This document shows, piece after piece, positions 1,870-7,003 of a DNA stretch of 24,446 nucleotides. The notes beneath the pieces were generated by a model. That model was not told the origin of the DNA. It did not search any database and saw only the letters and a program-made list of their open reading frames with translations. A program made the translations under genes and the position numbers. The stretch is from a virus: positions 1 to 24,446 of the IMG/VR virus record IMGVR_UViG_3300037840_000211, one strand, 5' to 3'. Each line of letters opens with the position of its first letter. Position 1 is the stretch's first letter.

Positions 1870-3210
1870 TCACCTCACAACGGGATATTCAACGCACCGG
1901 CAATTTACGTGAGTCGGAGGCCCTCCGTTGGGCCATGAATCGTTGATCCCGATGGGGCTGACATCGGCGTTCTCCCGGCAGAGCTCGCAGCAGTCGGGGT
2001 GGACCGCCAGAGCTAAGCCCGCAATGTGATTGGCACGGTAGAGAGCACGGCGAGCAGCGGTCGCAGCCCGGTTGTACTCCTGGTGTGCAATCACCTGGGC
2101 CCGGGCGGCGTCGTGGATGACCTCTTCGACCTTGGCAACGGTGGCCTTCATTGGGGCCCCGTCCCTGACCGCGGCGGCGATGATGTCCGCGATCCGGTGA
2201 AGCTGCGTCTCGGAGATGCCCTTGATCGTGATGCCCTGAGCCTGGAGCAGCTCCTCGAGCGTCCCACCAGGAAGCTGCGCCGCGACCTCATGGTGCCCCG
2301 GCACCCACTGGTCCCAATAGCCTTCGGGTAGCCCTAGAGACGGTAGGGGCTTCCCAGAGGCCTGTGAGGCTTCGTAAGCGCCTTGAAGGAGTGCGTCGCC
2401 GTACAGAGCCGTCAGAACGGCCGTGAGGCCCCCTAGCTTCAACTGGGCGTTCAGCAGAGCGAGGACGGCGCTACCCACCCCGCCAGCGGTTGCTAAGGCC
2501 GGTCCCGCCAGGGCAGCGCCGGCACCAACCCCTGCTGCGCCCACGACGGTTTGGGGAGAACTGATCAAGGCTTGAAGCTGCCGCTGGTACTTCGGGGTGT
2601 TCTGCGTCCCCGGCGCGGTCGGCTGCATCTGCTTGTGGACCGAGGTGTACGCGGCGCGGATCGCGTGGCGCACTACGTCGCCTTCGATGATCTGGGCCAT
2701 CGAGTCTTGGACTAGGGGGGTGTAGTGGGCCAAGATCGCGTCGGTGTGGCGGTGGAACGACTTGAGCAGGGGCTTGATGTCGCCGAGCTGTTCGGTGACC
2801 TTGTCCCTGATCTTGGGATCGTCTAGGTCGTCGCGGTGCCACCAGGCGGCTCGAGAGACTTCATCGCGCTGAGGTCGGAGCGTAAGGTCGGACTCAGAAC
2901 CAACACGCACGACAAATCCCTCGTACACGCCATCATCGGATACCCACCCTCCGCAGGGAGCGAGCCCCACGGGTAGAGAGGCACCAGTCTCTTCTTCCCA
3001 CTCGCGGACTGCACCAGCCCATACAGATGGGTCAGCGGAGCCGTCGTGGCCTCCGTCAAGTCGACCCCCGGGAAACTCCCACCTGGCATAAGCCTCTCCA
3101 TCGTCGTGCTTGTCGGGCAACCGCTGGACCAACAGTACACGGCCAGTGTCCTCGGCCTGGACAAGGATGCCGGCGGCTTCTCTGTTCAGGCCCCCTGAGG
3201 GGCCCTCACT
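1870..3210 (-). CDS. Nudix-MuF minor head protein, probably expressed as a -1 frameshift extension of the portal
   Basis: About 446 residues are read in the -1 frame after the slip at 3210. The N-terminal part is a Nudix hydrolase domain. Its box reads PGGRLDGG, then an enlarged loop, then VREWEEETGA, keeping the R-E-x-x-E-E-x-G core. A central Ala/Gly-rich hydrophobic stretch (VVGAAGVGAGAALAG region) follows. The last 80 residues are MuF/SPP1-gp7-like and end in the cysteine/histidine pattern HPDCCELC to HVNCRC. The frame also stays open upstream to a TTG at 3279 inside portal with no ribosome site, and a CTG at 3189 overlaps the portal stop. Neither is a good start. MuF proteins are minor head components next to the portal, so the Nudix domain may be carried in the virion. 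Confidence 0.85.
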   Translation of the reverse strand, partial: SEGPSGGLNREAAGILVQAEDTGRVLLVQRLPDKHDDGEAYARWEFPGGRLDGGHDGSADPSVWAGAVREWEEETGASLPVGLAPCGGWVSDDGVYEGFVVRVGSESDLTLRPQRDEVSRAAWWHRDDLDDPKIRDKVTEQLGDIKPLLKSFHRHTDAILAHYTPLVQDSMAQIIEGDVVRHAIRAAYTSVHKQMQPTAPGTQNTPKYQRQLQALISSPQTVVGAAGVGAGAALAGPALATAGGVGSAVLALLNAQLKLGGLTAVLTALYGDALLQGAYEASQASGKPLPSLGLPEGYWDQWVPGHHEVAAQLPGGTLEELLQAQGITIKGISETQLHRIADIIAAAVRDGAPMKATVAKVEEVIHDAARAQVIAHQEYNRAATAARRALYRANHIAGLALAVHPDCCELCRENADVSPIGINDSWPNGGPPTHVNCRCVEYPVVR

Positions 3211-5435
3211 TTTCCCGCTGACCGCGAGAAGGCCGCGATCACCTCTTCCCGCGTGCGCGCAGCCTGTAGGTGCTCCCAAACGGGGTCGGCGATGCCGAAA
3301 GGCAGGTCTTCGAAGCGGCGGGGAGGGAGGCCCTTCTTGACCCGGTTGAGCGAGTTCTCGCGCCAGCGACGGAGCAGGGTCTTCTCGGCCTCGTCTTCGT
3401 CGTCGTCCTCGGGGTCCTTCTTGACCTTCGGGCCGATCAGGTCGACGCCTTGGATGCCGGTGTCCACCATAAGGCCACCTGTGACCGTTGTGGGGTTGGA
3501 GAAGCCACGCGTGACGCCGGGGCCTCCGGTGTTGTCGATCGAGGTGCCGTCCTTGGAGACGCCCATGCGGTCCAAGAGGGCGTCGATCAGTTCGTAGGCT
3601 TCTCCGAGGGCGTCCTTCTGGGCGTTTTTCGGTTGGGTGGGGCCGTCGCCGGTCGCGGGCTTGGTAATCATGGGGGGCTGCTGGGCGGGGCGGAACTGCT
3701 GGGCAGAACGGGGGTCGGCGTTCTCAAGGGCCATGTTCGTCTGCATCTGCGCCGTCGAGTTCTGCGCGTCCTTGTAGTCCTGGCTCCCGATAACAGGGAG
3801 AGTGCCCGGCGCGGAGATGAACGGGTGGTCGATGAACTGCTGCTCCTGAGCGGGGCCGTACGTGGTCGCGTCCACCTTGCCAGCGAGGGAGTGGATCGCC
3901 AGTAGAGGGATGGGGCCACCGCGGGTGTTGTCCATGATCCGCGGGGTGGGGATCTCCCGGCTGATCCGCTTGCCGAGGGTCATACGCACCTCGTCTGAGG
4001 AGAGAGTCCCGTTCTTGATGTAGAGGTCGTTGGCCTGAGCGACCTCCAGGCGGTGCTGAGTCCCTTGTCCGGTGTCGAACTGGATACGGGCCTTGAGCTT
4101 CAAGTTCTCGAGGATGAACTGATTGATGACATCTTCGACGAAGCGGACCACGGGGAGAGTACCCACGCGGAACTGCACGTCTACCTGCACTTCTCCTGTC
4201 GCGCGGTTGACATCTTCGGTGAAGCCCAGGTCGTTCGCTGTGACCCCGAAGGCGGCCGCGGTGCAGCGCATCAGATAGAGCGGGAACTCCTTGTCAAAGA
4301 CTGTCTCCTTGACGGGCGTGAACTTCGCGCCACCGGGGACCCAGCGGATTTGGTTCAGCTTGGACTGGTCGCCGAGCATCACAGCGTCCCAGGTCTCCTG
4401 CCATTGTTCCACTTGGATCGGGTCCGAGAGGTCAGGCGGGGCTTCCATGAAGCCCGCCGGGATAGTCCCTTCGGTGAACCACTGGAGAAAATGCCACTGG
4501 AACCTGATATCCGTGTTCGCTTGGATTAGGACGGCTTCCATCGGGGCAAGGCCGTACTGACTCTCAGGCAATGGGTTCAACCGCTGGTAGATAATGTCGT
4601 CGGCTGTGAGCCACACCCAAGGCAAGCCTTCAATGATCTGCACGAACGCGGGAACCGTGTCGCCCTCCCAAATACCTTCGGGAGTCGCATTGGTGTCGTC
4701 CTCGTCAGCCGGTGGCCGTCCAAAGAAGTCCACCAGGGGAATTATCGTGGCCCCGCTGATGACCTCCAACGCAATCGGGTCTCCAGCCTCGTTGCGGCGG
4801 ATGTAGAGCGAGCCGGCGTCGTAACGGAGGACGTCTTGGAGCCACTCCGCGAGCCAAGTCCTGAAGGGCTGACGCTTGTCCGGCGAGGCCATGAACTCCT
4901 CGGCCTTGGCGATGTCCTCAGTCGCGTCCTCTAGGACATTCTGCGGCGGGATGAACTGGAAGTCGAGCGACCTAACGTCATTAATCAGGTGCCGAACGGC
5001 GATCTGCGCCGCGTAGTACGAGTCAATGATCGCCTTGAGGGTGCCAAAGCTGATGCGGTTCCAGCGCGGGACGAGCTGGACGTTCTCCCCGACGGAGTAG
5101 TCCCAAGTCCTCGGTGGGCGACGGTAGCCCCAGAAGGGGTCGAGCGGCCTGCCGGGAGGGAAGGGGGGTCCCCACGACAGGCCGTGCTCAGCTAGCGACG
5201 CCTCTAGCTCGGCGGGCGCGCGGCCGAAGGACGACGCTAGGTTCTGGGTGACCCTCGCGATCAGGGCGTTGTTGACCGTCCCCTGGTTGCTCCATGAGGT
5301 CCCTGGCATCTTGGCGGCGTTGCCAGTCAGGAACGCCTTGATGACCGCTTCGGAGGCCTTCGCGAACGCGAGGTCATCAACTGCCTCGGCCTTCACAAGT
5401 TCGGCCTTGGGGCGACGACGCAGAGAGATCGCCAC
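3186..5435 (-). CDS. Phage portal protein
   Basis: I place the start at GTG 5435, sharing one base with the terminase TAG, giving 749 residues. The frame is open upstream to a TTG at 5519 but that part lies inside terminase. The segments YSVGENVQLVPRWN, LKAIIDSYYAAQIAVR, AGSLYIRRNEAGDPIALE, DDIIYQRLNPLPESQYG and the helix near QFRVGTLPVVRFVEDVINQ are typical of portal clip, stem and wing regions in actinophage portals. The last 200 residues are Gln/Pro-rich, then acidic (DPEDDDEDEAEKTLL). The portal forms the dodecameric DNA channel at one capsid vertex. Gene order TerL-portal-MuF supports the call. A -1 frameshift signal lies at its 3' end. Confidence 0.93.
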   Translation of the reverse strand: MAISLRRRPKAELVKAEAVDDLAFAKASEAVIKAFLTGNAAKMPGTSWSNQGTVNNALIARVTQNLASSFGRAPAELEASLAEHGLSWGPPFPPGRPLDPFWGYRRPPRTWDYSVGENVQLVPRWNRISFGTLKAIIDSYYAAQIAVRHLINDVRSLDFQFIPPQNVLEDATEDIAKAEEFMASPDKRQPFRTWLAEWLQDVLRYDAGSLYIRRNEAGDPIALEVISGATIIPLVDFFGRPPADEDDTNATPEGIWEGDTVPAFVQIIEGLPWVWLTADDIIYQRLNPLPESQYGLAPMEAVLIQANTDIRFQWHFLQWFTEGTIPAGFMEAPPDLSDPIQVEQWQETWDAVMLGDQSKLNQIRWVPGGAKFTPVKETVFDKEFPLYLMRCTAAAFGVTANDLGFTEDVNRATGEVQVDVQFRVGTLPVVRFVEDVINQFILENLKLKARIQFDTGQGTQHRLEVAQANDLYIKNGTLSSDEVRMTLGKRISREIPTPRIMDNTRGGPIPLLAIHSLAGKVDATTYGPAQEQQFIDHPFISAPGTLPVIGSQDYKDAQNSTAQMQTNMALENADPRSAQQFRPAQQPPMITKPATGDGPTQPKNAQKDALGEAYELIDALLDRMGVSKDGTSIDNTGGPGVTRGFSNPTTVTGGLMVDTGIQGVDLIGPKVKKDPEDDDEDEAEKTLLRRWRENSLNRVKKGLPPRRFEDLPFGIADPVWEHLQAARTREEVIAAFSRSAGKVRAPQGA
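3189..3216 (-). promoter_or_regulatory. Programmed -1 ribosomal frameshift signal (slippery heptamer plus hairpin)
   Basis: On the minus strand, GGGAAAA occupies 3216-3210 and is phased G-GGA-AAA in the portal frame, the canonical X-XXY-YYZ form. The spacer GTGAG (3209-3205) is followed by GGCCCC-TCAG-GGGGCC (3204-3189), a 6-bp all-GC stem with a tetraloop. The portal TGA follows at once (3188-3186). A -1 slip continues as S-E-G-P-S-G-G-L-N-R-E-A-A-G into the Nudix domain. Efficiency cannot be read from sequence. An indel in the assembly is the alternative explanation for the frame change. Confidence 0.75.
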
Positions 5436-7003
5436 TACCGACGCGCCGCTGCCAACTTGAGGGTCCTCTCGTGTTCCATCGCATCGACCTCTTCGTGAGT
5501 GACCCCGCAGTTGACACAACGACCATCAGGCCAATACCGATGTTTGCAAGCTCGAGCCGGGATGACAGACGCGCCTTGGCCGATCAACGAGGGAAGTGGG
5601 CGCTCAGCCGGGGGCTTCGGGTTGGCCTCCTGGGCAGCCTGCTTGTTTTTCATGTAGTCCAACCACGAGTGCCCGAGGCCGGTCCCATCCCCAAGGAGGA
5701 TGCGACAGGCCATCCCTATCGCGACAGCTTGGTCGTCGTGCGCCCCGCGGTCGTGGTCAAGGCGGGTAACCCCCGGTGAGCTCTCCCGCAGCCTGACCTT
5801 CAAGAGCTCGTCCTTCAGTTGCGGGTCGTTCGGGACGTAGATCTGACGGTTGCGGAACGTCTGGACCAAAGCCGTGGCGACCTCGCCAACAGACGTGGCC
5901 GTGAAGTTCCACTCCTTCGCCCTGACCCCGCGTAAGTTCAGATTTTGGACCGACCCTCGGAATTGCGACGGGTCGGCATAGACCGGGCACCTAAACCACG
6001 CTGGGCTGGCGCTGACGATCCAGTCCTCGACAGCGCTGACCTGGATCGGGGCTTTCTTGGAACCCTTCCAGCGCTCAAGGTGGTCGATCACGACCCTCTG
6101 CGGCCCAAGCCTGTGGAGCGGGTCGATCGGCTCCTTGTGGGCTATGACCATGACCGTCGCGTCGTTCAGGATGCCGAGGTCGACGGTCATTATGTAGTTC
6201 GTGCCGGCCCTTGGTAAGAGGCTCTTGTACTCCTGGGCGGCGAAGTCCCAGTCCTCCTCGGAGACCGCTCTGTCCTCGTCCTCGGACCACAGGTTCAGAA
6301 CGAGGCGTTCGTACTCCGAGGGACGGAGCTGCCACTTGAGAGAGGCAAGTTCTTCCTCAGCGAGCCAAGGTACGGGGCCGGGAGCCTCAGAGACGCGCCA
6401 GAGGGGGTCGTCCTTGCACTTCTCGTAGATCTCATGGGACCAGTGAGACGGCTCACCCGCGGAGGTCAGGATGACGAGCTTGCACCCCTGGACCTTCGGA
6501 GCGGCCGTGTAGAGGGCCGTCCACACTCTCTTAGCCCCCCGCGTCTCGGGCCACTGGCAGAACTCGTCTGCTACTAGCAAGTGGGCGTCACGGAGGCCCC
6601 AGGCCCCTGAGTCGGACTGGGCCAAGACCTCTACCCACGCGCCGTTCGGAGCTCTGAGCTTCTGTGACTCCACGATCACCGCGCCGTCAAGCTCAGGGGT
6701 GCGCGCCACAAAGCCGTGGGCGGCGTCGATCACGATCGCGGCTTGATCGGTCGAGGCAGCGACGACGTGCCCGTTTGCCATCGGTGGCGCGTCGGTGGTC
6801 AACCAGGACAGGGCGATCGCAGCCATGTCCGTCGACTTCGAGCCACCTCTTGGGCGGGTGATGAAGTGCCAGTTCGGGCGCTGGTCGGAGAAGATCGCCT
6901 CCGCGTCCTCGATCTGGACGGGCCAATCGGCGGCTGCTTCGCCCCAGGGCCTGCCGTCCTCAAGACGGAGGGCCCACATCCGGTCAAGAGCTTTGCTACT
7001 CAC
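5435..7003 (-). CDS. terL: Terminase large subunit (packaging ATPase and nuclease)
   Basis: The product has 522 residues from GTG 7003, overlapping the small-terminase stop. The ATPase domain has a Walker A-like RPRGGSKS at 50-57 and Walker B with catalytic glutamate, HLLVADE, at 141-147. A serine coupling motif LTSAGEP follows near 179-185. The RNase-H-like nuclease domain shows D275 (TVDLG), D344 (YADPS) and D423-D424 (AHDDQ), the expected acidic triad. An unusual C-terminal tail carries C486-x-H488 and C496-x-x-C499, a small zinc-binding pattern. The protein drives DNA into the head through the portal and cuts the concatemer. Confidence 0.95.
   Translation of the reverse strand: MSSKALDRMWALRLEDGRPWGEAAADWPVQIEDAEAIFSDQRPNWHFITRPRGGSKSTDMAAIALSWLTTDAPPMANGHVVAASTDQAAIVIDAAHGFVARTPELDGAVIVESQKLRAPNGAWVEVLAQSDSGAWGLRDAHLLVADEFCQWPETRGAKRVWTALYTAAPKVQGCKLVILTSAGEPSHWSHEIYEKCKDDPLWRVSEAPGPVPWLAEEELASLKWQLRPSEYERLVLNLWSEDEDRAVSEEDWDFAAQEYKSLLPRAGTNYIMTVDLGILNDATVMVIAHKEPIDPLHRLGPQRVVIDHLERWKGSKKAPIQVSAVEDWIVSASPAWFRCPVYADPSQFRGSVQNLNLRGVRAKEWNFTATSVGEVATALVQTFRNRQIYVPNDPQLKDELLKVRLRESSPGVTRLDHDRGAHDDQAVAIGMACRILLGDGTGLGHSWLDYMKNKQAAQEANPKPPAERPLPSLIGQGASVIPARACKHRYWPDGRCVNCGVTHEEVDAMEHERTLKLAAARR

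Follow-up and report, generated by a model that had tools for sequence, protein, structure and literature searches.

A candidate programmed -1 frameshift at the end of a phage portal gene and its change of polarity among relatives

How a reading frame without a credible start codon comes to be translated is the question raised by the portal gene region of IMG/VR virus record IMGVR_UViG_3300037840_000211 (positions 1 to 24,446; this whole stretch of 24,446 nucleotides is referred to here as the window). On its minus strand, a portal gene overlaps a frame encoding a Nudix and a MuF domain, and a preliminary description, made from the DNA letters, had proposed that ribosomes enter the second frame via a programmed -1 frameshift joining the two. 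We consider such a frameshift at the end of the portal gene very probable, as in-phase heptamers, a phase control, downstream stems and changes of polarity among relatives all support it. That part of the proposal stands, and the signal also extends beyond its scope, being family-wide and usually reversed, such that frame 0 encodes the fusion.

The junction in the window and its close relatives

Read along the minus strand from 3217 to 3186, the junction is C GGGAAAA GTGAG GGCCCC TCAG GGGGCC TGA, and each element described earlier (GGGAAAA phased G-GGA-AAA, a 5-base spacer, a 6-bp stem and the TGA) lies where it had been placed, exact to the base (Table 1). The 6 bp stem is formed by 3204-3199 and 3194-3189 around the loop TCAG, and is present, with one extra G-U pair, in the minimum-energy fold of the 44 nt 3' of the heptamer (-21.3 kcal/mol, z = -2.1 versus shuffles). 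A search of Rfam at this site returned no match. Stimulatory structures generally begin 5-8 nt downstream (PMC4066793), and in the window a 6-bp GC stem follows a 5-nt spacer behind an X_XXY_YYZ heptamer in the zero frame; the -1 frame is coding in the window (Nudix-MuF) and stops early in fused relatives.

The -1 frame entered at the heptamer is indeed the Nudix-MuF frame and is open from the site to the stop at 1870. When recomputed, the product sizes agreed with those predicted before (749 and ~1188 residues): a slip at the heptamer would join 742 portal residues to a further 446, giving a predicted portal-Nudix-MuF protein of 1188 aa. The longest portal open reading frame (ORF) starts at 5519, upstream of the GTG adopted here. 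The Nudix domain matches PF00293 (E 1e-13), and the C-terminal MuF domain matches PF04233 (E 1e-5) with a score of 26.8 bits that is just under the Pfam cut-off of 29.6; scores in relatives are above it (36.6 for L001, 54.1 for L025 and 32.8 for Arthrobacter phage Mufasa8, where L numbers denote the loci surveyed). A PF04233 domain encoded beside the portal, as expected of an SPP1 gp7-like MuF protein, is thus found here.

Table 1. Positions of the features that make up the portal-MuF junction in the window
Feature	Positions	Strand	Basis
Portal protein, frame-0 product, 749 aa, start GTG 5435	3186..5435	-	PF04860 E 3e-19, phrog_2662 E 2e-31
-1 frame extension, Nudix (PF00293) + MuF (PF04233-like)	1870..3210	-	Pfam; homologous segments portal-fused in most relatives
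Slippery heptamer G_GGA_AAA, portal phase	3210..3216	-	window sequence; identical in L001 and L002
Spacer GTGAG, 5 nt	3205..3209	-	window sequence
Stem-loop GGCCCC-TCAG-GGGGCC, presumed stimulator	3189..3204	-	sequence, fold; GC stem with altered letters in relatives
Portal stop codon TGA, frame 0	3186..3188	-	window sequence

Two viral contigs, L001 and L002, are close relatives, with Nudix-MuF proteins 74-78% identical in amino acid sequence to that of the window. Their sites read GGGAAAA GTGACA GCCCC GGCAA GGGGC TGA (L001) and GGGAAAA GTAGC GGCCCC GACG GGGGCC TGA (L002). The heptamer, its phase, the GC stem and the -1 relation of the frames are common to all three, and the flanking codons, the loop and some stem letters vary, which is the pattern that the preliminary description had suggested seeking in an alignment of related phages. 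The case that it had named as contrary, a MuF gene with a clear ATG and no heptamer, is absent from the clade of the window, though the more distant L016 may be one in which MuF has a separate ATG start.

The signal across the portal family

Using a portal alignment and then a wider one, 84 loci were assembled, representing 69 clusters at 90% nucleotide identity; the main counts were made on the 55 clusters with a detected MuF domain, in the zone from portal core to MuF, accepting only in-phase X_XXY_YYZ heptamers with Y = A or T. An in-phase heptamer lies between the portal core and MuF in 49 of the 55 clusters, or in 48 without L037, whose doubtful poly-A heptamer was dropped as misplaced. 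Elsewhere in these ORFs there are only 14 such heptamers in 35,067 codons, a frequency that predicts about 7 loci. Hence, a motif that is rare elsewhere and occurs here in nearly every lineage is more than chance would give. Most are CCCAAAA or GGGAAAA, and all 44 occurrences of these two in the junction zone are in phase, with none in either of the other phases. In 38 new clusters retrieved after the rule was fixed (the unseen set), 33 have an in-phase heptamer and, with all heptamer types counted, 34 are in phase and 7 off phase.

Portal and MuF share one reading frame in most relatives, which makes the fusion the common state of the family. In the fused genes, the -1 frame entered at the heptamer stops after a median of 4.5 codons, compared with 37 when the count starts at other codons in those genes, and in the unseen set after a median of 2 codons versus 32 for the +1 frame. 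Examples are L013 (GGGAAAA GCACAG GCCCGGC TTAG GCCGGGC, with the -1 stop TAG within the loop), L021 (AAAAAAA GCCTCA GCCGGC TCTAG GCCGGC) and L091 (CCCAAAA GGTGA CGCCCCC ACCAA GGGGGCG). The best simple stem 3-9 nt 3' of the site has a median score of 16.0, against 5.4, and in one subgroup of constant geometry 98.4% of stem cells pair, with two pairs altered on both sides; slid controls of that subgroup gave no such two-sided changes. The fold-energy percentile discriminates less well than this score and by itself is modest (mean 0.15), because these genomes are GC-rich.

In about ten clusters, the window among them, a -1 shift would connect portal with MuF, as it would at three more loci of the unseen set (L118, L146 and L178). 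At most other loci, frame 0 is the portal-MuF fusion and the -1 frame stops early, leaving a short portal, an inversion that resembles dnaX. With either polarity, the layout would yield two products, portal with and portal without MuF. Mapped on a portal tree covering the 55 clusters, fusion by way of -1 requires 8 changes of state, all of them forced by well-supported branches, and the signal therefore outlives the choice of frame-0 product. An indel of one or two bases past the site suffices to reverse the polarity, and the persistence of inversions hints that neither product greatly outweighs the other. Backed by a strong stimulator, C_CC.A_AA.G gave 54% frameshifting in E. coli (PMC4066793), and dnaX is a natural case at about 50%.

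The inverted form is also carried by cultured phages. Nucleotide searches against cultured phages found nothing, whereas a protein-level search found homologues of its genes in the Arthrobacter phages Mufasa8 and Sonali, which are 60% identical to each other in the portal-MuF protein. In both, a single product of about 1000 aa is annotated (portal, Nudix or portal-MuF). Mufasa8 has CCCAAAA at 4347, the only in-phase heptamer in a coding sequence of 1000 codons, and Sonali has CCCAAAA at 4354, the only one apart from one at the start codon; a CCCTCC...GGAGGG stem follows in both, with the -1 stop nine codons on. The predicted short forms are ~749 aa (Mufasa8) and ~748 aa (Sonali). Neither the records of these phages nor the literature found mention the in-phase CCCAAAA, the stem or the -1 stop.

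Relative to the site, Nudix is encoded downstream in the window, L001, L002, L004 and L052 and upstream in L018, L028 and Mufasa8; L013, L017 and several of L020-L027 have no detected Nudix domain. Since it is downstream, upstream or absent depending on the phage, the Nudix domain is incidental to a site that divides the portal body from MuF. Having shifted across the site (compare L018, L028 and L006 with the window), it would be part of both products or of the fusion only. The Nudix-MuF protein of L002 has an additional 2'-5' RNA ligase/LigT-like (2H phosphoesterase) domain between Nudix and MuF (L002:6600-7250; PF13563, E 9e-8), missing from the window and L001, and the MuF arm thus seems to swap enzyme cargo. 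In L034, an in-frame insert within the portal ORF (5920-6390) has an intein-like start (DTEVLTDEGWRT), though a Pfam search gave no intein match.

Other explanations and points against a frameshift

The alternative that survives best, though we think it very improbable, is a separate Nudix-MuF gene, translated by coupling at CTG 3189, where CTGA forms the overlap, or from TTG 3279. The CTG does overlap the portal TGA, and four-base start/stop overlaps are common in phages. However, the first base of this codon is the final base of the stem, which it therefore abuts, and it has no properly spaced ribosome site. Near the site, the -1 frame has only three codons of the ATG, GTG or TTG type, all TTGs, one 63 bases before it and two (84 and 96 bases after it) that fall within the Nudix domain, and a Shine-Dalgarno match was sought at these without success, which bears out the earlier claim that the frame lacks a credible start. 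The close relatives likewise have no Shine-Dalgarno-matched ATG, GTG or TTG in this frame and, where MuF lies in the -1 frame (13 loci), a start with even a 4-base match was found only in the distant L095, L118 and L146. A separate gene also leaves unexplained both the in-phase heptamer and the relatives fused in frame 0 whose heptamer leads to an early -1 stop.

Slippage of the RNA polymerase on the A run, rather than of the ribosome, is less probable again. A few relatives (L020, L021, L025 and L053) do have A7 or longer, but the window and most relatives have just four A's after GGG or CCC, and by general experience four are too few for polymerase slippage; the strict codon phase and the downstream stem fit the ribosome.

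It is scarcely credible that an indel arising in sequencing or assembly has split what is truly a single fused ORF, as the one-frame portal and MuF of most relatives might suggest. The run concerned is merely GGGAAAA, and L001 and L002 show the same frame relation in the same place, despite protein identities of 74-78%; the L002 locus is also contained in a second assembly, L003. Because the same frame break recurs in separate assemblies, local sequencing error is ruled out for practical purposes, and the extra merging base that the preliminary description had named as a refutation finds no support in the two further assemblies.

Equally far-fetched is a Pro/Gly-Lys motif conserved at the protein level, with its codons fixed by chance and no recoding signal for, although P-K or G-K is encoded at most sites, the motif is replaced by S-K-K in L021 and L025, by P-L from CCCTTTA in L019 and by P-F from CCCTTTC in L063, the Lys codon of A-type sites is AAA every time while AAA makes up 17% (274/1612) of Lys codons elsewhere in these genes (274 AAA versus 1338 AAG), and neither an early stop specific to the -1 frame nor a downstream stem and repeated changes of polarity would be expected.

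Several observations weigh against a programmed -1 frameshift, or against its generality. Because the P values ignore kinship among the loci, they are overstated; less affected by this are the phase control, the unseen set and the changes of polarity. Seven of the 55 loci (L011, L016, L018, L032, L037, L043 and L051) are without an acceptable heptamer. One of these, L018, is a near miss, with TCTAAAA, a -1 stop and a 7-bp stem; in L011 and L037 portal and MuF are fused and there is no signal; L043 has a separate ORF downstream; and L016, L032 and L051, which have no -1 heptamer, have MuF in the +1 frame; L077 and L144 are also out of frame in +1. A minority of loci (L060, L073, L081, L094 and L099) have a weak simple stem or none and would therefore need other stimulators, and the A-run site of L053, though correctly placed, has no stem and was retained with that caveat. 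Finally, G_GG.A_AA.A, the heptamer of the window, has been named an inefficient motif in E. coli (PMC4066793), though the hosts look actinobacterial and motif efficiency may differ there.

The +1 stretches are L016:3230-3340 and L051:6430-6500, neither with a -1 heptamer, and L032:3400-3530, where CCC_TTT is in the portal frame and no ATG, GTG or TTG is evident ahead of Nudix, so that a +1 shift at CCC_T is possible. More distant portal-MuF-like proteins (Thermoanaerobacterium THSA-485A, Brevundimonas Polewnik and Alicyclobacillus MMB025) have no comparable in-phase site, and the claim therefore covers only the portal family to which the window, Mufasa8 and Sonali belong.

Proposed mechanism and relation to known systems

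Under a programmed -1 frameshift, some ribosomes would stop at the TGA and release the 749-aa portal, and a set fraction, with tRNA-Gly in the P site and tRNA-Lys in the A site on GGA AAA, would slip one base back to GGG AAA at the GC hairpin and read on to complete the 1188-aa portal-Nudix-MuF. As the two forms share the portal ring domain, they should co-assemble in one dodecamer. Established portal structures have their C-termini pointing into the capsid interior, and for this reason the MuF arms, here with Nudix, would extend into the head, and how often a slip occurs would determine their dose. Covalent attachment and frameshifting would then replace SPP1-like non-covalent binding as the means of setting this dose, and by analogy with SPP1 gp7 we infer the role of the MuF tail.

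More tentatively, and a little short of an even chance in our judgement, the reversible site, found across the family, may maintain two portal isoforms in the majority of its phages, giving mixed rings armed with MuF at a set dose, with slip probably in the tens of percent or near parity. A high, near-parity rate is probable because the roles of the two products have been swapped about eight times without loss of the signal; if slip is near parity, inversion alters the product ratio little.

Just upstream of the portal, a 522-aa ORF with no Pfam match is in the position of a large terminase, and there is also a weak small-terminase match. Close downstream of portal-MuF, two glycosyltransferase family 2-like ORFs (window:1-1517; PF00535, PF13704) occupy the place expected for capsid genes. 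A DNA N6/N4 methyltransferase ORF (PF01555) lies at window:22243-23589.

Portals have been treated as rings of twelve identical subunits, and a conserved two-form portal signal predicts mixed ones. In a large group of soil-type phages, the gateway for DNA into the capsid would apparently come in a shorter form and a longer one that has a MuF tail domain, and the signal would be a way to set the capsid load of MuF and of enzymes joined to it, Nudix among them. Mufasa8, Sonali and many environmental phages would need re-annotation, and the stoichiometry and function of MuF become directly testable in cultured phages.

In the full-text literature, in which subscription journals were thinly covered, frameshifts were found in tail chaperones, tail tubes, capsids and transposases and none at a portal-MuF junction, nor was any report found of repeated polarity inversion of such a frameshift; the earlier impression that the junction frameshift is undescribed is consistent with this. 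Among the closest known systems is the lambda G/GT-type tail chaperone frameshift (Xu, Hendrix and Duda 2004, as cited in PMC6316719 and PMC3556154). As there, a -1 slip at X_XXY_YYZ near the end of a structural gene would give, at a set ratio, a short protein and one lengthened at its C-terminus. Unlike the chaperones, which are encoded between the major tail protein and the tape measure, the pair here is portal and MuF in the head module, the first product matching Phage_portal; a GC stem usually follows, and the polarity inverts among relatives.

The T7 gene 10B protein is a frameshift product of a structural gene. Others are SPP1 gp17.1* (PMC6316719) and structural proteins of Listeria PSA (as cited in PMC10299305), both by +1 shifts. 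Though in these, as proposed here, a shift gives a minor extended virion protein that assembles with the short form, they are tail-tube or major capsid proteins, and SPP1 gp17.1* and PSA use +1.

In SPP1, gp7 (MuF) is bound by the portal within the capsid, in few copies, and contributes to infection (PMC6316719, PMC5576092). By analogy, MuF here would also work with the portal in the capsid interior at low copy but, unlike gp6 and gp7, which are two separately translated proteins, it is predicted to be covalently attached to a fraction of the portal subunits. Single-ORF portal-MuF fusions have been described in Microbacterium phage clusters EA3, EA5, EA8 and EB with no shift reported (PMC7302621). 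Mufasa8 and Sonali likewise join portal to MuF but, in contrast to a single-ORF annotation with one product, have the heptamer, the stem and the -1 stop.

The closest parallel to the layout of most relatives is E. coli dnaX (tau/gamma), where frameshifting is ~50% efficient (Larsen 1997, as cited in PMC4066793): frame 0 is the long form, -1 stops almost at once and a stem follows the heptamer, though the gene is a different one and the layout of the window is the opposite. Phages are thus already known to use programmed -1 frameshifting, and both portal-MuF fusions and the dnaX layout have precedents. The portal family described here would combine them in an unusual case, in which a frameshift signal persists through repeated inversion of which product needs the shift.

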